A DNA stretch of 64,000 bases from Vulcanisaeta sp. JCM 14467 (GTDB taxonomy: Archaea > Thermoproteota > Thermoprotei > Thermoproteales > Thermocladiaceae), in NCBI RefSeq assembly GCF_001316245.1, contig NZ_BBDM01000001.1, forward strand, positions 1 to 64,000. The letters run 5' to 3'. Under the pieces are notes generated by a model. The model was not told the DNA's origin. It was given only the letters and a program-made list of their open reading frames with translations, and ran no database searches. This document shows, in pieces, positions 11,516-47,706 of the stretch. Position 1 is the stretch's first letter; every line of letters begins with the position of its first letter. The translations under genes were made by a program, and so were the position numbers.

Positions 11516-11826
11516 ATGTTCATTGAGGTTAGTGATGAGGAGATATTGACGGCCCAGAAAATGCTTGGTAGGGAGGGCATTGGTGTCGAACCAGCCAGTG
11601 CGGCGTCGTTTGCGGGCTACATAAAGGCCCTGCGTGAGGGCTTAGTTGATGCCAGGGACAAGGTTGTGCTGATAGCCACCGGGCATGCCTGAAGGATCCA
11701 GATATATTACTAATGGGCAGTGGTAGTAATGTTATTAGTGTTTTATCAATAGATGAGCTAATTTTGTCGGTGCCTTCAATATTACTTTTAAATGTTAATG
11801 TTATTGAGAAGATAAAATCTTCATGA
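11516..11826 (+). pseudogene. thrC: Truncated threonine synthase (C-terminal fragment)
   Basis: The frame MFIEVSDEEILTAQKMLG then GIGVEPASAASFAGYIKALR then KVVLIATGHALKDPDI is the C-terminal end of threonine synthase, the PLP enzyme that makes threonine from O-phosphohomoserine. The N-terminal three quarters, with the PLP lysine, are absent: upstream is only the promoter region of the divergent hsdM operon. One missing C near 11692 must be restored after ATGHA. The tail after DPDI does not look like the family. This is a remnant, probably left by rearrangement at the edge of the defence island. Confidence 0.7.
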
Positions 11827-11873
11827 CCTAATGAGATTAAAGGAGACCATGTTAAGTATCCTTGAAGGGTTAA

Positions 11874-12107
11874 ACCCAAGCCCAAAAGCCCGAAATCGCT
11901 AGTTTAAAGAGACCAGTACCTAAGCTCAGCTTTATCGAGAAGAAGGATAGGCCTGGAGCATACTTAGTCAATACATCAGCTATTTTAGGAAGACCGATAC
12001 TCGAGAAAGATGCTAAGATGCTAAAATCAAATCATTATAAAGAGTATGATTTTAGTTCTTTTCCATGCCTTAGTACCCCATATGCTGATAATGGTGTAGG
12101 TGAGTAA
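11874..12107 (+). other. Open frame without start, unidentified remnant
   Basis: A 77-codon frame without internal stops has no ATG near its beginning. It reads KRPVPKLSFIEKKDRPGAYL, then NTSAILGRPILEKDAKMLK, and ends YADNGVGE. The composition is protein-like and it follows the threonine synthase fragment on the same strand, so it may be another piece of a rearranged gene. I do not recognise it. Confidence 0.3.
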
Positions 12108-12139
12108 TTTTCTCAAAAGCTAGGTTATTTCAATTGGGC

Positions 12140-12420
12140 CTATTTTGTTGGTGCGCATTTCATGGTTTTCTCGTTCTCGTAGAATTTCCTCAGTGCTTCT
12201 GTTGGGTCTTTTGCTTGATGAGCTTCATTGCTAGTCCGTCTTCGCTTCTTACCTCGATTACCACGTCGCCGTCGAATTCCAGGCGGCAGACCGTGGTTGG
12301 TTTGATGCCTCGCCTCTCCGCCTCGTTGATCGCAATACCGATTAACTCATTGATTGTGTAGTTGAAGTCGTAGTCACTGACGAGTCTGAATTCATCGAGG
12401 TGGTACGCCCAAATGGGCAT
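12140..12420 (-). CDS. Small conserved-looking protein of unknown function
   Basis: About 93 residues after restoring one missing G near 12210. It begins MPIWAYHLDEFRLVSDYDF, has a helix (INELIGIAINEAERRGIKP), a beta pair (TTVCRLEFDGDVVIEVRS), and ends RKFYENEKTMKCAPTK. The alternating helix and strand pattern and the charged tail support a real gene. Without the frame correction it stops at 12190. It is divergent from the next gene to the right. No family assigned. Confidence 0.55.
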
Positions 12421-14185: not shown

Positions 14186-15426
14186 ATGCCGAGGGCATTA
14201 CTGGTTATTCTGGACGGCTGTGCTGATAGGCCGGTTAAGGAGCTTGGTGGGAAAACTCCGCTTGAGGTTGCAGTTAAGCCAACTATTGATAGGCTGGCTG
14301 CCGAGGGTTCCTGCGGCCTCATGAATGCGATAGCGCCTGGCGTCAGGCCTGGTAGTGATACGTCTCACCTGGCGATTTTTGGTTATGACCCTTACAAGTA
14401 CTACCTGGTAGGGGCCCGCTTGAGGCCTTGGGTGCCGGTTTGATGCTTAATCCTGGTGATGTTGCCTTTAGGACTAACGTGGCCACGGTTAATGAGACTT
14501 GGTCGTCATTGATAGGAGGGGTGGTAGGTACATAGACCTGGCGAGGTTAGGGAGATAGAGGGTATAATCAATAATGAGGTATTGCCGGCATTGAGGAGTA
14601 AGTATGGGATTGATGCAGTTTATAAGCAGACCGTAGAGCACAGGGGAGTCCTTGTGCTTAGGGGTGGTGTATCGCCACACGTTAGTGATACTGATCCGCA
14701 TGTGACTGGTGTCAGGGTTTCTGAGGCTAAGGCGTTAAGCGATGATGCTAGGGTCACTGCTAGTTACATTAATGATTTCACGAGGCTCGTTTATGAGAAG
14801 TTGAGTAAGGCCGAGTTTAATGAGAAGAGGAGGAGGGAGAGTAAGGGGCCGATTAACATGGTCCTACTCAGGGGTGCGGGTTCTATGAGGAGTTTCGAGC
14901 CACTTAGTTCCAGGTATAGGGTTAAGCCTGCGATAATTGCTGGCGTTGCGTTGATTAGGGGTATTGGTAGGGCGTTGGGTATGGACGTGATAAACGTTGA
15001 TAATTACATAGGCTCTAAGGATGATGACTTCATAGCGGCGTTCCAAGCCGCGGCGAGGGCATTTAATGACCACGACTTTGTGTTTGTTCACGTTAAGCCC
15101 ACGGACTCCATGTCCCATGACGGTGATGCCAGGGGTAAGGCGATGATTATTGAGAGGGTTGATGCTGGTATTAGGAGGTTCCTTGAGGAGGCGCCCAGTG
15201 ATACGTACATATTCATAACCTGTGACCATGCAACACCAATAACCGTTAGGGAACATACGGGGGATCCAGTACCATTTCTGGCATGGGGGCCTGACGTGAT
15301 GAGGGATGATGTTACTCAATTCAGTGAGAGGCTTGTGCCAAGGGCTTTTGGGGCAGGATTAGTGGTATTGATGTAATGAATATAATAGCTAATTACCTGG
15401 GTACTCTTGAGAAGTTTGGTGAGTAA
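14186..15426 (+). CDS. apgM: Archaeal cofactor-independent phosphoglycerate mutase
   Basis: Interconverts 3- and 2-phosphoglycerate in glycolysis and gluconeogenesis. The start MPRALLVILDGCADRP holds the first metal-binding Asp, followed by GVRPGSDTSHLAIFGYDP with the catalytic Ser region. The C-terminal metal site shows as VHVKPTDSMSHDGDARGKA and FITCDHATP. Length (about 413) fits the aPGAM family. Four one-base losses are seen: GGG read as GG near 14410 (YLGRGPLEALGAG restored), near 14502, near 14550, and near 15352, after which the true end IDVMNIIANYLG and TLEKFGE is read. All are in G-rich runs. Confidence 0.92.
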
Positions 15427-38907: not shown

Positions 38908-40314
38908 TTATCCTAGCCTTAACCTTAACTCCATGATGATTTTATTTATCATGAACATAGGTCCAGTGGTCTTATTGATTGATGTTGAGACATATTGCAT
39001 ACTTGTTTTACCACTGGTTGTGGTGTTAATAATCATTGTGGTATTGTTAATGGTTTTCTCATCACCTATTGTTGCATTACCAACATTAACCTTAACCATC
39101 TCATTACCAGTCACATTGTTTATACCAGCGTTAACGCTGTTGAAAATCTGTAATGAGCACCATGATATTTCACTTACCTGGGCTTGATACAGAGGCATTA
39201 AGTATTGCTCTGGAGTTATTGGTATTACTGACTCGTTGAAGAAGTCATAAGTTTGCAGGTAACCACCGAAGAATAGCGACTCATTAAGTAAGTATAGCCC
39301 CGTTGGGTAGTTCTTGGTTTCATAAACGGGAATTGCATAACCACTTTGTGTTACATAATCAACCTGGAGTAAGTAGTAAGTATTGGGTAGGCAGGTTGGG
39401 TTTATTAACGTGCCATTTGGTAGTAATAATATCGGCGATATATAGACCGCAGGCCCAAAGGGTACGAGCCTCGACCTCTGGTATATGGTGTATCCATAAT
39501 TTGTAAGCTCACCTATTGTGGCATTAGGGATAAATGATAACTGACTAATTAATGACGAATTTACGTACTCATTAAATGAAAACTTGAGTATCTGAAGAAT
39601 CTCTGGGAATGCCGAGCTCGGCCATGAACTTGCATTTGTGCCCTGCCCAACCCACATGGTAAATACGCTAATGCCTGGTAAACCAACCTCATAGTACTCA
39701 CTAACACTGTTGGTGGCTGGGTTATAACCGTAGTAATAATTCCATAGGTAGTATGGTTCACCATTAAGGGCCGTTAAGTAACCACCTACGGAACTCAACT
39801 CCGTTAGTAATTGCGTTAAGCTCTCATTACCTGTCTCGAAGGCAAAAACTACGTAATTAATGCCGTTTATGTCCTCTGTTATTACTATGTACCAATTGGC
39901 ATACACTGGTTGCGGAGATACGAGGTAAGGCGGGACCTTCAGTATCCACGTAACGCCACCAGTGGCATTAGCGTTTGCCGTGGCATTTAGTAAAACCTCC
40001 TGTTGTATCGTGGTTTCAGAGGCATTGGCTATATATAGTGTAAATTCTCTACCTGCCGTTGCGGTCCAAACAGGTGTTACGTTCTCGATTAATAAGTCCT
40101 CATGATAAGTTAGTGGGTACTCACTACTTATACCGCTTAGAAATTGTACCGTGGGTCTTGAGTCTGTTAGGTTCATGGTTATTACATATGTTGTGTAGAC
40201 TACGGGTGTAGGTGCTGGGCCATAAATAATACCTGCGTAGGTAGATAATGAGATTAATATCAATATTATCGTTAGAGATAGTATAAGTATTATCCACTTA
40301 TTAGTCATCATCAC
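38908..40314 (-). CDS. Secreted, glycosylation-rich surface protein
   Basis: 468 residues with an intact frame. Signal peptide or anchor at the N-terminus (WIILILSLTIILILISLSTY). The mature part has many N-x-T/S sequons (NMTLTDS-like sites, NASETT, NATANANATGG, NNTTMIINTT) and Tyr-rich strands (NGEPYYLWNYYYGY). It ends KIIMELRLRLG with no C-terminal anchor. Probably exported and glycosylated. It is divergent from the secretion ATPase at 40418, 103 bases away, so they may share a control region. Confidence 0.65.
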   Translation of the reverse strand: MMMTNKWIILILSLTIILILISLSTYAGIIYGPAPTPVVYTTYVITMNLTDSRPTVQFLSGISSEYPLTYHEDLLIENVTPVWTATAGREFTLYIANASETTIQQEVLLNATANANATGGVTWILKVPPYLVSPQPVYANWYIVITEDINGINYVVFAFETGNESLTQLLTELSSVGGYLTALNGEPYYLWNYYYGYNPATNSVSEYYEVGLPGISVFTMWVGQGTNASSWPSSAFPEILQILKFSFNEYVNSSLISQLSFIPNATIGELTNYGYTIYQRSRLVPFGPAVYISPILLLPNGTLINPTCLPNTYYLLQVDYVTQSGYAIPVYETKNYPTGLYLLNESLFFGGYLQTYDFFNESVIPITPEQYLMPLYQAQVSEISWCSLQIFNSVNAGINNVTGNEMVKVNVGNATIGDEKTINNTTMIINTTTSGKTSMQYVSTSINKTTGPMFMINKIIMELRLRLG

Positions 40315-40417: not shown

Positions 40418-41949
40418 ATGAGTCTAGATTTTCAATTAATACAGCCAATAGGCCAACTTAAGGAACTAGAAAAGTACCCACTGTATGAACCGTTTGCTTA
40501 CGCTACAATAGTCCAGGACGAGAGGACTGGCGACATAATGTATTACCTCGAGGAGATAACGCTAGACCCAACGGAGCAGCAGGTGTACAAGGAGTTGGTG
40601 AGAATAGTTATGCTCGAGCTACCACCGCCTGAAGAGTTAATGAAGATGGGTGATGTAAAGAATTACCTACTTAATGAGTTGAAGAAGATTGTTGGTAGGT
40701 ACAGGAGACTCTTCAGGAATGTACCACCCTCATCCTTCGCTAAATTCCTCTACTACATGGAGAGGGATTTACTCGGTTATGGACCGATAGATGCGTTGAT
40801 GAGAGACGAGAATATTGAGGATATTTCATGCGATGGTGTTGGTAGGCCCATCTACGTATTCCACAGGAAGTATGAGTCAATACCGACGAATATCGTGCCA
40901 ATGACCGACCAAGCCCTTGACGACCTAGTTGTTAAGTTGATACACATGTCGGGTAGCATGTCTCAGTAGCAACCCCAATAGTTGATGCGCAATTACCAGA
41001 TGGTTCTAGGATTGCCGTTACGTATAGGAGGGAGGTCTCACCAGGCGGTTCTACATTCACGATTAGGAAATTCAGGAAGAACCCACTGACGTTCGCAGAA
41101 CTCGTCAAGTTCGGCAACATCAGTGCCGAGATAGCGGGTTACTTCTGGGTTATGCTGGATAATGGTAGGTCATTCCTAGTGCTTGGTGTCACGGGCGCAG
41201 GTAAGACAAGCTTCCTAAATGCCATGGCAACATTCATTAGGCCTAACATGAAGATAATAACCGTCGAGGAGGTCCCAGAGGTAAACCTACCCCACAAGAA
41301 CTGGGTCAGGCTAGTCACTAGGCAGAGTTATGGGGCTGAGAAGATAAACGAGATCACACTATTCGACCTAGTCAAGGCAACGCTTAGAATGAGGCCCGAC
41401 TACCTAATTGTTGGTGAGATTAGGGGTGAGGAGGCGTATGTCCTGTTTCAAGCAGTGAACACGGGCCACAGTGGCATATCTACGATGCATGCTGAGTCCT
41501 TCGAGGCAGCGGTTAATAGGCTTACGAGCCACCAATGAACATACCGCCTGCTACATACCTGCCATGAACATATTCGTCATGGTCAAGAGGGTTAAGATTG
41601 GTGGTAGGTTGACGAGGAGGGTTACTGAGGTTGGTGAGGTTTACATGGATGGTGACAAGATTAGGTTTAACACTGTGTTAGGTGGAACCCGAGGACTGAT
41701 ACTCATGAGTCATATGTTGGGAAGAGCATCCTTGTTAGGCAGATAAGTGATATGACGGGTAAGGACGTGGATGAAATACTCGGGGAAATAGACACGAGGG
41801 CGAAGATTGTCCAGTGGATGGTGGAGAATGAGATCTTTAACTTTGAGGATGTCTCAACATATGTTCAAACATACTACACAAACCCAGATAAAGTACTTAA
41901 TCAGGTATTTGGAAGGGTGAGCGAGGTTGAAAGCAGTGCTCAGATTTAA
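40418..41949 (+). CDS. GspE/VirB11-type secretion ATPase
   Basis: About 512 residues rebuilt. N-terminal domain (YPLYEPFAYATIVQDERTGD), then YMERDLLGYGPIDALMRDE, typical of archaeal type IV pilus and archaellum ATPases. Core motifs: Walker A VLGVTGAGKTSFLNAMATF, Asp box ITVEEVPEVNLPHKNWVRLV, Walker B DYLIVGEIRGEEAYVL, His box NTGHSGISTMHAES. It powers assembly or retraction of pilus-like fibres. Breaks lie near 40960, 41520 and 41690. No FlaJ/TadC-type membrane partner follows; instead come small coiled-coil proteins. Confidence 0.85.
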
Positions 41950-42292
41950 GGACCTCAATTCCCTGATTAGATATTTAAATGAGGAACTGAATAAATTATT
42001 AATAGCTAAGAAAGTACTTGATGATGAGGTAAGGAGGGATCCTCTCGTGGATATAATCGAGATAGATAAAAACGGTAATATTAACATTAAGAGAGACAGG
42101 ATATCAGAAGTAATGAAGGGACTAAGTAGTGAGCTTGATAGAAGGATTGAACGCATTAGTTCATTGCTTGAGGAATTAACGAGCGAATTTAATAATTATA
42201 ATTTCACGGGAATCGTACTTTTAGAATTTAATAATGGAATACCTAGTAGGGTATTACTATCACAACCATTAACCATGGGCGAGGGTTCATGA
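41927..42292 (+). CDS. Small coiled-coil/beta-hairpin protein A
   Basis: About 121 residues (TTG 41927 start, overlapping the ATPase end; GTG 41936 is possible). It opens AVLRFKDLNSLIRYLNEELN, which matches the opening of protein C on the other strand (KKFESLDELIRTLKSELS). A charged coiled coil follows, then a C-terminal strand pair TGIVLLEFNNGIPSRVLLSQ. Similar endings recur in five neighbours. Overlaps protein B by four bases. Confidence 0.6.
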   Translation: MKAVLRFKDLNSLIRYLNEELNKLLIAKKVLDDEVRRDPLVDIIEIDKNGNINIKRDRISEVMKGLSSELDRRIERISSLLEELTSEFNNYNFTGIVLLEFNNGIPSRVLLSQPLTMGEGS

Positions 42293-43134
42293 TACCCATA
42301 GTACCGGTATTAATAATAATCATAATGATTGGAATGTTAGTACTAGGCTTAATCAGGCCGCCCCTCACCGTGATAATACCATTGCTTGGCATTTACGTAA
42401 TATTAATGCTGATACCTTACATATTACCTAACTTAGCAATTAATCAATACCTTAGTATTAAGTACATAATGCTTCCAGTAATAGGCTTGGCGATGGGTTA
42501 TGGAATATCCATATTGATGAGCAGATACATGAATATTGATGTGCGCTCACTATTTGGGCTAGGGCGAAGTAAGGGGAGGGCTGGAAGACCAAGGACTATG
42601 AGTAACCAGAGGATTAAGAGACCCGAGATAAAACCTGAGGAATTGGATAAGCTCATTAATGAGTCAATTAATACGTTAAGACTTGGTATATCAATTAATG
42701 AAACATTGGGTAGTTGGGTTGAGTATTATGATGGGTGGACTGACGCAATAATAGGTATTTCTAGAAGATTCATGGATATTAGAGAAAGTGCAGATATAAT
42801 TAGTAAGGAGGCTTTGCTCTTATCAAGAATTAGGCAGTACGAGAGTAAGGCCTTAGCGCTTGGCTTAACGTTAAGGGAGGAGTCAGCCTTCAAGAAACAA
42901 AGAAGATCAAATAGTGAAGATAGGTTGGTAGTCTATGCTAGGCCTGAGGAATTAGTTAATGAATTAATGAATGCAACACAGATAATGAGTGTCTATGTTG
43001 ATGAGCTCGGCGGAATACTTGAGAAACTAATACATGATAATGGGATTTCTCAGTACATATTTAATTCAAGGATGCTGATCCTTTACGTGGATGGAGTACC
43101 CAGGAAACTCATAATGATTAATAAGGGCTACTAA
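42289..43134 (+). CDS. Membrane-anchored coiled-coil/beta-hairpin protein B
   Basis: 281 residues with an intact frame. Three N-terminal membrane helices: VPVLIIIIMIGMLVLGLI, VIIPLLGIYVILMLIPYILP and YIMLPVIGLAMGYGISILMS. A basic linker and a soluble helical part follow (KPEELDKLINESINTLRLGI). The end SRMLILYVDGVPRKLIMINK is the same strand-turn-strand ending as in proteins A, C and F. It is likely the membrane anchor of the small-protein set. The stop overlaps that of convergent protein C by four bases. Confidence 0.65.
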   Translation: MIPIVPVLIIIIMIGMLVLGLIRPPLTVIIPLLGIYVILMLIPYILPNLAINQYLSIKYIMLPVIGLAMGYGISILMSRYMNIDVRSLFGLGRSKGRAGRPRTMSNQRIKRPEIKPEELDKLINESINTLRLGISINETLGSWVEYYDGWTDAIIGISRRFMDIRESADIISKEALLLSRIRQYESKALALGLTLREESAFKKQRRSNSEDRLVVYARPEELVNELMNATQIMSVYVDELGGILEKLIHDNGISQYIFNSRMLILYVDGVPRKLIMINKGY

Positions 43135-43532
43135 GTACCTCCCTCACCCTGCATAATAATCATTATTGGTATTGAATCAACAAGCAACGCAATCACCGGT
43201 TGGGCCTTATCAACGTTAAGCAATTCCAGTCTATCGATCACGGACTTTATAATCGCCGACCTCCTCTGTATGTAACCAGCGGCATCATTTATCACGTTCC
43301 TCCTCGTATTAGTGCCCGGCTTATAAATAATTCTCAATGAGAACACCTCCGAGGAATCATCGATAAACCTAATATTCTCTGAAACTTCACTTGCCATTGT
43401 CATATTACTTTCAGAACCAAGTATTTCATTCCAATTCTGCTTAAGCATGTACATGAACCTATACGAGTTACTCAACTCACTCTTTAATGTACGTATTAAT
43501 TCATCCAATGATTCAAATTTTTTTAATCTCAA
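43131..43532 (-). CDS. Small coiled-coil/beta-hairpin protein C
   Basis: 133 residues from a TTG at 43532. Start RLKKFESLDELIRTLKSELS parallels protein A. It has a helical middle and the ending PVIALLVDSIPIMIIMQGEG, again hydrophobic strand, Asp, turn with Pro, hydrophobic strand. It is the last gene of the five-gene leftward set and converges with protein B. Family unknown. Confidence 0.55.
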   Translation of the reverse strand: MRLKKFESLDELIRTLKSELSNSYRFMYMLKQNWNEILGSESNMTMASEVSENIRFIDDSSEVFSLRIIYKPGTNTRRNVINDAAGYIQRRSAIIKSVIDRLELLNVDKAQPVIALLVDSIPIMIIMQGEGGT

Positions 43533-43535
43533 TAA

Positions 43536-43805
43536 TCATGAAGAACCACCAATCACCTCCTCAATCTTCCTAAATGGTTCTGGATAGTTTATATCGCTTA
43601 ATCTAACGATTGTTTCAAAGGTTCTTGAACTGCCACCAATTGTTGAGATTGCTTCATCAACAGTTTTCATAACCCTAGCCAACTCATCAGCCGTTAAACC
43701 AATGACACCACTCAGGACACTTGGTATTTCAGTCACTTCCTTAATACTAGGTAAGTGTAGTAATGATGCATTTGACATGTCTGGCAGTGAGTATCCTATT
43801 ATCAC
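43536..43805 (-). CDS. Small protein G in the coiled-coil set
   Basis: 89 residues: MIIGYSLPDMSNASLLHLPS, then SGVIGLTADELARVMKTVDE and ETIVRLSDINYPEPFRKIEE. It differs from the other members: no long coiled coil and no terminal strand pair. Its start overlaps the end of protein D by four bases, so it is surely co-translated. Family unknown. Confidence 0.5.
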   Translation of the reverse strand: MIIGYSLPDMSNASLLHLPSIKEVTEIPSVLSGVIGLTADELARVMKTVDEAISTIGGSSRTFETIVRLSDINYPEPFRKIEEVIGGSS

Positions 43806-44176
43806 TCAATTGATGAGTCATCAATCATGACTGTATATTCATCACTTATGCCAAGCTTCTCGGCAAACTCTACTGCCTGTTTAATGGACATGAGCATGTC
43901 CGTATAATAATTAATGGCATCCTTAATTGCGTTTTTATAGCCATTAGCTGTAAGTACGTAGGTTATCTCAACATCCTCAAACTTAGTAGTTATGTTTGTG
44001 TTACCCTTAACATAGGCGGCCTGGGACTTACTTCTTAATTCCCTGATTAACTTATTTGCGAATTCATTATCAGGACTATAGGCATGTATCTCATTAATTA
44101 TTTGCATTACTTCATTAAGCCTATTACCGAGGTCCAGAATCACATCCCTTAACTTATCACTTTTTAGCACTATCAA
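43802..44176 (-). CDS. Small coiled-coil/beta protein D
   Basis: 124 residues from TTG 44176, overlapping protein E by 20 bases (GTG 44170 would reduce this). MIVLKSDKLRDVILDLGNRL begins like the other members: strand then helix. A strand pair lies mid-protein (TTKFEDVEITYVLTANGYK), then a helix and the short ending YTVMIDDSSIE. Family unknown. Confidence 0.52.
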   Translation of the reverse strand: MIVLKSDKLRDVILDLGNRLNEVMQIINEIHAYSPDNEFANKLIRELRSKSQAAYVKGNTNITTKFEDVEITYVLTANGYKNAIKDAINYYTDMLMSIKQAVEFAEKLGISDEYTVMIDDSSIE

Positions 44177-44546
44177 GGTCGATCACCACCAGTGATGGTA
44201 CATCACTAAAGTACCTAACCATGGCTTTAAACTCATAATCCTTAAGCTTACCTAGCCTAATCTCAAGTGCTTCATAAATTGCGTATTCTAGCTTGAGGAA
44301 TTGAATTGCTTTTGAGAATAACTCCCTATACGCCTCCTTCGATGGTTCTTTATACAGGATTATTGGTATTGAATTCGGTATATCAATGATCATTCTTTCG
44401 CTCCTGTCAGGTAAATTAATCTCGCTACTAACCTTACTATATATCTCGTATAGGTTCTTCACATACTCCACAACCCTTTTCTTATTCTCAAGTACCCTCC
44501 TGTGTAATTCTCTCAAGTCAATACTTATATCGAGACTGGCGCTCAT
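44157..44546 (-). CDS. Small coiled-coil/beta protein E
   Basis: 129 residues. Helical start (LHRRVLENKKRVVEYVKNLY), a central strand pair ERMIIDIPNSIPIILYKEPS that looks like the terminal pair of protein C, a second helical part, and the ending PSLVVIDLDSAKK. The repeat of the strand-Asp-turn-strand motif inside and at the end suggests shared ancestry with the rest. It overlaps protein F by four bases. Confidence 0.55.
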   Translation of the reverse strand: MSASLDISIDLRELHRRVLENKKRVVEYVKNLYEIYSKVSSEINLPDRSERMIIDIPNSIPIILYKEPSKEAYRELFSKAIQFLKLEYAIYEALEIRLGKLKDYEFKAMVRYFSDVPSLVVIDLDSAKK

Positions 44547-44938
44547 GGCATTATCACCAGTTTTGTCTTCTTATTGTTATAATCTATCATTATCATTATT
44601 GAGGCATTTCTATCCTTAATCTCATTTAAATATTTACTCACCTTCTCGATTTGTCCTACTATATAATTAATGTTGCTTTCTACCGCATTTAATTTATTCA
44701 ATAACCACATCGAGTGAGGTGCAATATGTATATTCAGTGCATGTGGTATTGCCTGTACCGTTATTACCTGGTGTGATGGTTGAAAGCCGAGCTTCATAAG
44801 TTTCTCCTCCATGTTAGCATTTACTTTCAGTTTTTCCTTAATCATACCATAACGTTCCCTTAAGTTTAATAATTGTTCTTTAATTATGTTCAATTTATTT
44901 ATTGCATCCTCAATCGTACTGAATAATAGCACTAACAT
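44543..44938 (-). CDS. Small coiled-coil/beta protein F (first of the leftward set)
   Basis: 131 residues. MLVLLFSTIEDAINKLNIIK leads into a coiled coil (EQLLNLRERYGMIKEKLKVN), a middle beta part (PSHQVITVQAIPHALNIHIA), a second helix, then the ending ASIMIMIDYNNKKTKLVIMP. It is the head of five overlapping leftward genes; no strong TATA box was picked out upstream. Family unknown. Confidence 0.55.
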   Translation of the reverse strand: MLVLLFSTIEDAINKLNIIKEQLLNLRERYGMIKEKLKVNANMEEKLMKLGFQPSHQVITVQAIPHALNIHIAPHSMWLLNKLNAVESNINYIVGQIEKVSKYLNEIKDRNASIMIMIDYNNKKTKLVIMP

Positions 44939-45013: not shown

Positions 45014-45241
45014 CTAGGTCTCCTCTTTAATCAACCTGGAAATCTCATTTATGGCCTTATTTATATCCTTAATGTCATTACGTATAGCCATTATTTCTGC
45101 CATGATTAATGAATTGTCAAGGCATTTAATTAGTAGGTCAGCCCAACTCCTTGAATGGTATATTTGTTTAAGCTTTTTCAGCTCTTCATATTGCTTTTCA
45201 TCAACTTCAATCACGATTCTCTTCTTGCCATTCTTAGCCAT
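45014..45241 (-). CDS. Small ribbon-helix-helix-like protein with coiled tail
   Basis: 75 residues with an intact frame. KKRIVIEVDEKQYEELKKLK, then YHSRSWADLLIKCLDN, fits a strand-helix-helix DNA-binding unit, followed by a coiled-coil tail (IRNDIKDINKAINEISRLIK). It lies 75 bases before the small-protein operon, and may regulate it. Confidence 0.55.
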   Translation of the reverse strand: MAKNGKKRIVIEVDEKQYEELKKLKQIYHSRSWADLLIKCLDNSLIMAEIMAIRNDIKDINKAINEISRLIKEET

Positions 45242-45286: not shown

Positions 45287-47706
45287 TTACTTACCTCTTC
45301 TTTGCGATTTCGTAACGCTAATCATAAATTCCGGTATTTCAACATACTTTACATAGTACTGAATGAGAGCTTTAACTATTTCTCTGAGCATCAACATGAG
45401 CGTCGACTTCCTAACACCAAGCACCTTAGCTGCCTCCCTCCAGGGCCTTGCCTGCAACACCTTACAAATCAGCGTCTCCTCATAGAATTGAGGCAGGACA
45501 ATATTATCAAGCCCCTTCCTTAGGTAGTACGTCTTCACAAGCTCCGTTATTGCATCCGCCGTATTCTCATACGTCATCGGACCCCACGAATAAGCAACTA
45601 AACGCCTAACCTGGGCCTCAGTGAGCCTAGGGCTATACCCAGGATCAAGGGCTTGCCCCCAATCTGTTAGTAGCATCCTAACGACGTCAGGCTCCATGTC
45701 ATGGAACGGTCCTTGCAATGAGTTGAGAAGTCTCAACCTAAACTCCTTATTTGCATAGACAGCCGCGTCCCTAGCCTTCTCACTTATTGGTTTGACAAGT
45801 AGCACACTGTACTCACCACTTATTGGATTTCTTTCAGGGCTTATGTGAACCGGCATGTAGCCATTCTTAATCCAGAAATTCAGTAGTTTGGCATTAACGC
45901 CGAAGCCAACACCAACCCAGTCAATACTCCTTTCCCTAGCCTCCTCCTCAATCCTCCTAAGCATCTCCGTGCCAAGGCCCTTGTCCTGAAGCTCGGGGTG
46001 TGTGGCAATCCTTATGATTCTCCAACCCTTTAACTTCGCGAAGTCCGTCAAGCCCCAGTACTTAATGAGCCTATCGGGTATTATGTTTCCAGGCAACTTC
46101 AAACCCCTCACCACCATGTCAATTAAGTCATCGCTTATGCCGCCCTCCTCAGCGAGCTCCACCGAGACGACGATCTTACCATTACTAAGCGTTAGGGCTC
46201 TCACGAAGTGGTGTGGTGCATCCATCATCATGCCCAGGTCATCGGGCTCATTCCTATAGTGGGCCTGCACGTATATGCCAAAGAACTGCCTCAGCCTATC
46301 TTCATCCGACAGAAAGAATTCCTTAAGGTCCGGTACTAGGTAGTTAAATTCGTGCTTATTTATTGGTTCGAGATCCTCATCTGTTATTTTAGCGGGCTCC
46401 GCATCGAGTAGTAGGGTATCGAATAACCACTGTTCTACTGGGTCGTTAGGCGCATACCTAATTGGCTCCTTAAGCTCGTATTCAATGACCTTGGTATTCT
46501 TGTCCTCTCGCAGGTACTTAAGGAACCTAAGACTAAAACCCCTACCTGCACCCTCGTAACCATGTATTGTCGATGCATATATAACCCTGCCAAATCTCTC
46601 ATGTATTCCGTAAAGCACGGGAAGTGGTATCATAGCCGCCTCATCAACCACGACAATGTCCCTACCCTCCTCACTGAGCATGTCATAAGGCCTTATGTAA
46701 TCTATGAATATTGATATCCCCACCTTAACCGAGACCACGTGATCACCCCACCGACTTACGTCCACGTCATAATTCAGTGCCCTGAGACCCTTTATGACGA
46801 ATTCCATTAGTGTCGAGACGTTGCTTGGATTCATAGCCGTCACCGCAAACCTAGCCCTACCCTTAGCCTTCCTGAGCCTATGAGCGAGGGCAGCCAATGC
46901 AAGTCCAATGATTGCTGACTTACCCCTACCCCTATCGGCTATTAACACGACATTAACCTTCTTACCCCTTGGTGGTCTCTCCAGTAGTATCTCCATTGAC
47001 CTGAGGGCCTCGACTTGGTCTTGCGTCTTGGCTAGTTCATAAATGGCCTTGGAAAACCTGATCCTACTCGGTATCTCTATCTCCCTTGGCTTCCAGGCTG
47101 GGAATCACCAATGACGGGTTCCTTAATAACCTCATCACGATCAACATTAATTATCAACGCCTTACTCATGCCCATTAATTTATTCCAAAACCTAATCTTC
47201 AGGAAGTGCCTAACATCCTCAGGCCTGTACTGGGGTACCAAGAGACTTTGCTGGAACTTCGTTAACTGCTTAACCCACTCATCAAGTGGTGGTACCATGA
47301 ATACGTAAATTCCACCACCCCTAACAATACCGCCTAACCTACCCACATCGTTAGGCTTAAGGTCATTCAATAAGTCCAGTATTGCGAAGTCCACGGTAAC
47401 TCCAAGGAGTTCATCAGTCTCCTTATACGGCCTATAATCAACGTTTGCATTTACCCCCTCAATGAACTCCTTAAACTTACCCATCCTCCTCTGGGCGTCT
47501 GGGTACTCTGGTTGGTACATGTACAACCCATGTGGTTCCTTAACAATTAACGAGAACTCCCTAAGCACATCCGCCGCATATCTGGCGAGTCTTTCCTCAT
47601 CAGTACCCACAAGTACCACTAAACTCCTATGGTTCGAAAATAATCCCTCCCTTACCAATCCCTGCAACAGTTCAGTCCAGCCCATATCCTCAGTCCAATC
47701 TACCAA
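45287..47706 (-). CDS. tmcA: tRNA(Met) cytidine acetyltransferase TmcA
   Basis: About 806 residues rebuilt. It makes N4-acetylcytidine in RNA (wobble C of tRNA-Met in bacteria; many sites in some archaea) using ATP and acetyl-CoA. Domains in order: an N-terminal domain to about residue 200; helicase-like ATPase with Walker A VVLIADRGRGKSAIIGLALA and Walker B DIVVVDEAAMIPLPVLYGI, then YASTIHGYEGAGRGFSLRFL; GNAT domain RIATHPELQDKGLGTEMLRR; and a C-terminal tRNA-binding part. One break near 47095 separates the first domain. Confidence 0.93.

Follow-up and report, generated by a model that had tools for sequence, protein, structure and literature searches.

Six small genes, here called A to F, which follow a secretion ATPase gene in the hot-spring archaeal genus Vulcanisaeta, appear to encode diverged members of a single protein family, one further member of which, a protein of about 146 amino acids (aa) designated X, occurs across the phylum Thermoproteota. 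The locus lies in the 64,000-nucleotide stretch analyzed here (the window), which is the part of contig 1 from position 1 to 64000 in a Vulcanisaeta assembly of 2.44 Mb. On balance we lean toward the view that A to F are lineage-specific duplicates of X that make up an accessory set at the cytosolic face of a pilus motor, one for type IV pili of the subclade 4A type, likely a collar or adaptor on the ATPase and its FlaJ platform. A role as motor accessories is favored because of loci that join X, the ATPase and FlaJ, the trees of the ATPase and FlaJ and their shared phyletic pattern, and an A-like gene in a pilus operon of another family, as well as the family relation itself, the conserved order of F, E, and D in Thermocladium and the precedent of ArlX and ArlCDE in the archaellum.

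A Family of Diverged Paralogs

The ATPase gene (40418..41949, + strand; about 511 aa in relatives) is broken into four open reading frames (ORFs) by three frame breaks in the assembly, at ~40951, 41530-41546, and ~41680, and is intact in relatives. It is followed on the same strand by A (41927..42292; 121 aa), a soluble family member whose first 23 bp lie within the end of the ATPase gene, and B (42289..43134; 281 aa), a membrane-anchored protein with the family domain at its C-terminus. Converging on these from the - strand are C (43131..43532; 133 aa), E (44157..44546; 129 aa) and F (44543..44938; 131 aa), each a soluble family member, and D (43536..44176), in which the family domain is joined by a C-terminal extension. 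A preliminary description of the sequence had placed seven small genes in two converging operons after a secretion ATPase. Its ORFs are present and the two tightly packed, converging units stand, with overlaps of 4-23 bp at most junctions, but seven separate genes can be rejected, since ORFs 43536-43805 and 43802-44176 are parts of one D gene of ~213 aa, which a frameshift at ~43805 interrupts in this assembly and which eight relatives carry intact. Many other genes of the window are apparently split in the same manner, for example those at 14186-15376 (phosphoglycerate-mutase-like) and 45287-47706 (TmcA) in addition to the ATPase (40418-41949) and D (43536-44176), indicating that ORF-based gene counts are inflated in this assembly. 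Substitutions relative to a relative are concentrated at third codon positions in every family member, which argues that A to F are real genes.

Neither A to F nor X has an entry in Pfam or NCBIfam, and the family relation was traced by profile-profile comparison with hhalign against reversed-profile controls. A first round, restricted to alignments from within the genus, connected A, B, and C and no others; later rounds added the Thermocladium members and then X. With the Thermocladium members included, five of 15 pairs (A-C, A-F, B-C, A-B, and C-E) scored above every off-diagonal reversed-profile control, protein A matching protein F at P=5.5e-5. A protein encoded at L116:182-604, in a pilus locus of the Desulfurococcales, matched the profiles of A, C, and F, and served as the bridge through which X was uncovered. 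X in turn matched A (P 1e-8), C (2e-11), E (4e-6; 114 columns), B (4e-4), F (1.8e-3), and D (0.017), where the best reversed control reached P 3e-3. A combined profile of X, C, A, and E reached the B domain at 1.1e-6, F at 6.7e-5 (120 columns) and D at 1.1e-4 (66 columns), against P values of 0.06-0.3 for reversed controls. Tested as one paralogous family, X and A to F accordingly lie above the reversed controls, with D the weakest; the layout that the preliminary description had seen in A to F exceeds chance, and its proposal of diverged paralogs is supported through the links of all six to X, with strong support for A, B, C, and E, moderate support for F, and the weakest for D. It is improbable that only A, B, C, and E form one family and that D and F are unrelated neighbors with a similar helix-strand composition. 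Such a reading could point to D being reached by the combined profile only, to its poor structural model and to the score of F against X alone; however, D shows the same order of elements in its model, the combined-profile P values are two to three orders better than the reversed controls, F matches A, and the F-E-D operon is kept across genera. A search for relatives of A to F at the order's diverged-ATPase loci and at its paired-FlaJ pilus loci gave nothing significant.

The AlphaFold2 model of C (predicted local distance difference test score 85.3, predicted template modeling (TM) score 0.74) has the order E-H-EE-H-EE, that is, strand, helix, two strands, helix, two strands, and the layout of X is probably strand-helix-hairpin-helix-hairpin. 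The model of D, built from five sequences, is unreliable (predicted local distance difference test score 42) but displays the element order of C plus the extension. As the preliminary description had it, B is membrane-anchored, being the sole member with membrane helices, which hydropathy places at the N-terminus (residues ~4-80); an export signal was found in none of the soluble members. The modeled structure gave no significant fold match among PDB or viral models, and matches of family proteins to PDB sequences were dismissed as coiled-coil noise.

Conservation in Vulcanisaeta and Its Relatives

Each of the 12 Vulcanisaeta genomes searched contains homologs of B and E, and synteny of the block ATPase-A-B / C-D-E-F is kept across the genus, its copies being complete as far as contig ends and frame errors permit. 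On one side it is bordered by a divergently transcribed gene for a 468-aa predicted secreted or membrane-anchored protein with an N-terminal hydrophobic segment (38908..40314, - strand), which occupies the same place in relatives, and on the other by a gene for a 75-aa protein (45014..45241, - strand), conserved across the genus between TmcA and F. The 75-aa protein has no Pfam match and is possibly a ribbon-helix-helix regulator of the C-F operon. The 468-aa protein is a conserved neighbor of the ATPase whose relation to the system is unproven; it was considered as an equivalent of the large propeller-type proteins that adjoin X elsewhere (see below) and rejected for want of similarity.

Outside the genus, single-sequence searches with B and E returned no match and profiles were required. 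Thermocladium carries both X and A to F, with A and B directly behind its ATPase, C alone, and F, E, and D in an operon elsewhere in the same order as in Vulcanisaeta. In Caldivirga X was found but A to F were not detected. While the ATPase is nearly invariant within Vulcanisaeta (87-97% identity), A to F diverge fast, a contrast that fits peripheral subunits.

The ATPase and Its Probable FlaJ Partner

By its matches to T2SSE (PF00437, 4.8e-30) and to the archaellum ATPase (FlaI) model, the window ATPase is a FlaI/VirB11-type enzyme. In the ATPase tree its clade joins, at 100/98, the ATPases from pilus loci, to the exclusion of the clade that belongs to the paired-FlaJ system Vulcanisaeta also has, and the FlaI/VirB11-type ATPase of a subclade 4A-type pilus is thus found here by PF00437, by the FlaI model and by phylogeny. 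Caldivirga, Thermocladium, and a genome of another family (G025) have orthologs at 60-67% identity, and none was found in genus g3 or in the Pyrobaculum-like family f3. In G025 the gene for the ortholog (60% identity) belongs to an operon that also encodes a FlaJ with two domains, an A-like protein, a pilin that bears a class III signal and scores above the PF04021 cut-off, and a second pilin-like protein. ATPases of the sister clade sit with FlaJ, pilins, and X in many Thermoproteota. These loci indicate that the machine is probably a variant of the type IV pilus with an expanded accessory family, rather than a filament of some novel type.

The preliminary description had instead envisaged a filament, ring or secretion scaffold, with an implied departure from pili, and had allowed that pilins and FlaJ beside the ATPase in relatives would speak against it, which is what the loci outside the genus display. 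Its remark that no known pilus parts are nearby was accurate, for no pilin or T2SSF/FlaJ gene accompanies the ATPase in Vulcanisaeta, the nearest T2SSF on the window contig being ~110 kb away; other secretion ATPases of Vulcanisaeta genomes do have T2SSF/FlaJ nearby. A locus lacking FlaJ or pilin throughout the genus, and small proteins without a Pfam domain, are what an apparatus unrelated to pili would offer, but such an origin is largely refuted and to be given very little credence in view of the G025 operon, the sister ATPases, the presence of a FlaJ of the matching clade elsewhere in the Vulcanisaeta, Caldivirga, and Thermocladium genomes, and the lack of export signals in the soluble members. 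That the proteins form a scaffold which the ATPase drives, or which serves the ATPase, is plausible.

The FlaJ in question is a stand-alone, two-domain protein that is unlinked to the ATPase in all three genera and shares its phyletic pattern, both being present in Vulcanisaeta, Caldivirga, Thermocladium, and G025, and absent from g3 and f3. In V. distributa this FlaJ is encoded at G014:C1:1536412-1538235. In the FlaJ tree the stand-alone proteins group with the operonic FlaJ of G025 (98/97), with Vulcanisaeta and Thermocladium as sisters (92/91), and FlaJ is linked to an ATPase of this type in G025, G049, L080, L116, and L180. The agreement of the two trees argues for pairing of the ATPase with the stand-alone FlaJ in Vulcanisaeta, and we infer that this protein is likely its partner. 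A MinD/ParA-like ATPase adjoins the stand-alone FlaJ in Vulcanisaeta and Thermocladium (L050:10275-11078, L053:6773-7615, L057:2219-3019) and is possibly a positioning or regulatory partner. Directly upstream of ATPase-A-B, Thermocladium also encodes a second secretion ATPase of 423 aa and a 337-aa, weakly T2SSF-like protein (L045:1657-3938). Inteins (PF14890) are present in the orthologous pilus ATPases from two archaea of the Desulfurococcales (L116:3835-7488, L115:1353-5951), the L115 case including a LAGLIDADG domain.

Distribution and Genomic Context of X

X was detected in 169 of 398 Thermoproteota genomes. It lies immediately upstream of the ATPase and FlaJ in G049 and within a few kb of an ATPase of the same clade at L116, L179, L180, L181, L182, and L189, several of which also have FlaJ and pilins with the PF07790 pilin domain; X therefore adjoins this clade in seven diverse lineages. 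At L190 and L191 X adjoins a pilin-like gene, and the two are followed there by two uncharacterized soluble proteins, the first without a Pfam match (L190:7512-8744, L191:7485-8662; family f15). In G383 (family f65) two copies of X flank FlaJ and the ATPase (L189:6997-7416 and 11776-12210), which represents an independent small duplication of X. Among 20 X loci sampled for taxonomic spread and chosen before their context was seen, five contain the ATPase clade, compared with ~0.3 by our own estimate of chance, which assumes a 15 kb interval, a 1.8 Mb genome, and one or two such ATPases.

A family of mutually homologous proteins of 725-1214 aa is also found next to X across many lineages, whether the ATPase is there or not. 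Its members lie at L116:651-3812, L179:8237-11881, L180:8096-10759, L182:8027-11464, L155:5136-7742, L183:7741-10272, L184:4952-7129, L193:4870-7212, and L194:5104-7722, and that of L180 has propeller and CarboxypepD_reg domains. The family is a candidate second component of the same system.

Several observations weigh against X and its paralogs being pilus motor accessories. Most of the 20 sampled loci are without the ATPase within ~7 kb, and X is present in genomes that lack this ATPase/FlaJ clade altogether (g3 and the Pyrobaculum-like f3). In Vulcanisaeta, Caldivirga, and Pyrobaculum-like genomes it adjoins genes that, named from their sequences, are CCA-adding-enzyme-like or of other housekeeping types, and in g3, where the ATPase/FlaJ clade is absent, its neighbors are likewise housekeeping genes. 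C to F are unlinked to the ATPase in Thermocladium, and no cognate pilin was identified in Vulcanisaeta, pilins of PF04021 and PF07790 having been seen in operons of relatives. Caldivirga retains the ATPase and FlaJ with A to F undetected, which implies that these proteins are an elaboration and not core or essential parts of the motor. As judged from gene neighborhoods, the link between X and pili is strong but not exclusive.

A general cytosolic role for the family, for instance as a prefoldin-like chaperone or assembly factor whose proximity to pilus genes is secondary, has some appeal in that X is widespread, often adjoins housekeeping genes and occurs without this ATPase clade, and in that archaeal prefoldin is among the nearest solved shapes. 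Prefoldin resembles the family in its helical pair and beta hairpin, and 1fxk is the nearest interpretable solved shape, but the fold modeled here has an extra first strand and a final hairpin, the genomic context differs, and the match is not significant (Foldseek E 1.2, TM score 0.4-0.5, ~0.5 on the target). Matches to the prefoldin models PF02996 and PF01920 fell below cut-off and appear to reflect the coiled coil only. With X beside the same ATPase clade in seven diverse lineages, A and B directly after the ATPase in Vulcanisaeta and Thermocladium, and B anchored in the membrane, we regard this explanation as unlikely.

Relation to Known Systems

In the census of archaeal type IV pilus loci by Makarova, Koonin, and Albers (2016; PMC4858521), a subclade 4A ATPase adjoins a cytoplasmic and a membrane protein in Vulcanisaeta and Caldivirga. 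This locus appears to be the window ATPase with A and B, although A and B were found here only in Vulcanisaeta and Thermocladium. The census left three to four extra components of Desulfurococcales 4A loci untraced and proposed them to be minor pilins; X, by contrast, is predicted to be cytosolic, having no export signal. Its main text makes no mention of C to F, the paralogy, the phylum-wide X or the unlinked FlaJ partner, and a search of open-licence papers, supplements aside, returned no description of C to F, X or their paralogy.

In the archaellum, the membrane-anchored ArlX and the soluble ArlCDE are thought to form a motor ring (PMC8978795). What they have in common with A to F is small size, a division into a membrane-anchored and a soluble type and, as proposed here, a place around a FlaI-type ATPase with its FlaJ platform; a likeness in role is our hypothesis. 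The systems differ in that Vulcanisaeta has seven paralogs of probably one fold and a system of the pilus type. Pfam and NCBIfam models for ArlX, ArlC, ArlD, and ArlE gave no match to A to F or X. In bacteria, PilM/PilN/PilO and GspL/GspM form an inner-membrane accessory scaffold of coiled coils and small alpha-beta domains beside the motor. No profile match to these was obtained, and the family of A to F and X is without their periplasmic topology. Membership of A to F and X in ArlX/ArlCDE, PilMNO/GspLM or prefoldin is therefore not supported.

The ArlCDE precedent also prompts a reading in which A to F are a regulatory switch for the ATPase, responsive to signals as ArlCDE is with CheF, and not a structural scaffold. 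Their variable copy number, their fast divergence beside a nearly invariant ATPase, and the MinD-like ATPase next to the unlinked FlaJ would suit such a switch, but Pfam and NCBIfam searches with the family members revealed neither a sensor nor a catalytic domain, and we hold this explanation to be rather improbable.

Proposed Role and Implications

Under the interpretation that we favor, A to F as motor accessories derived from X, X would serve as an accessory component at the cytosolic face of the type IV pilus motor that the ATPase and a two-domain FlaJ make up. A single X would have been duplicated in the Vulcanisaeta-Thermocladium lineage into a set of seven, X plus A to F, within which B gained membrane helices and may tether the set to the membrane by the ATPase and the FlaJ platform, the latter now probably encoded elsewhere in the Vulcanisaeta genome. 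The set could then assemble into a heteromeric collar or adaptor, either docking the ATPase onto FlaJ or regulating it, in the manner of ArlX or ArlCDE. What has been observed comprises the genes and the extent to which they are conserved, the relation among the family members, the modeled fold of C, the neighborhoods that join X to the ATPase, FlaJ, and pilins, and the matching phylogenies; contact with the motor, the collar, adaptor or scaffold role, heteromerization and its stoichiometry, the choice of FlaJ by the ATPase in Vulcanisaeta, and the nature of its pilin are matters of inference. A bolder and doubtful extension would make X the missing cytosolic scaffold subunit of many archaeal type IV pilus motors, a counterpart of ArlX/ArlCDE and PilM/N/O, with the duplication in Vulcanisaeta and Thermocladium having replaced a homomeric ring of X by an obligate heteromer with as many as seven paralogs, of which the six at the locus might match the ATPase hexamer, with B as anchor.

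Archaeal type IV pili reach their greatest diversity in Thermoproteota. Being phylum-wide, without a Pfam or NCBIfam entry, and located beside a pilus ATPase in several lineages, X is a concrete candidate for an untraced component of the subclade 4A loci. If the expansion of X into specialized paralogs, one of them membrane-anchored, is true, the Vulcanisaeta locus would provide a clean natural case of a machine gaining subunits by duplication.

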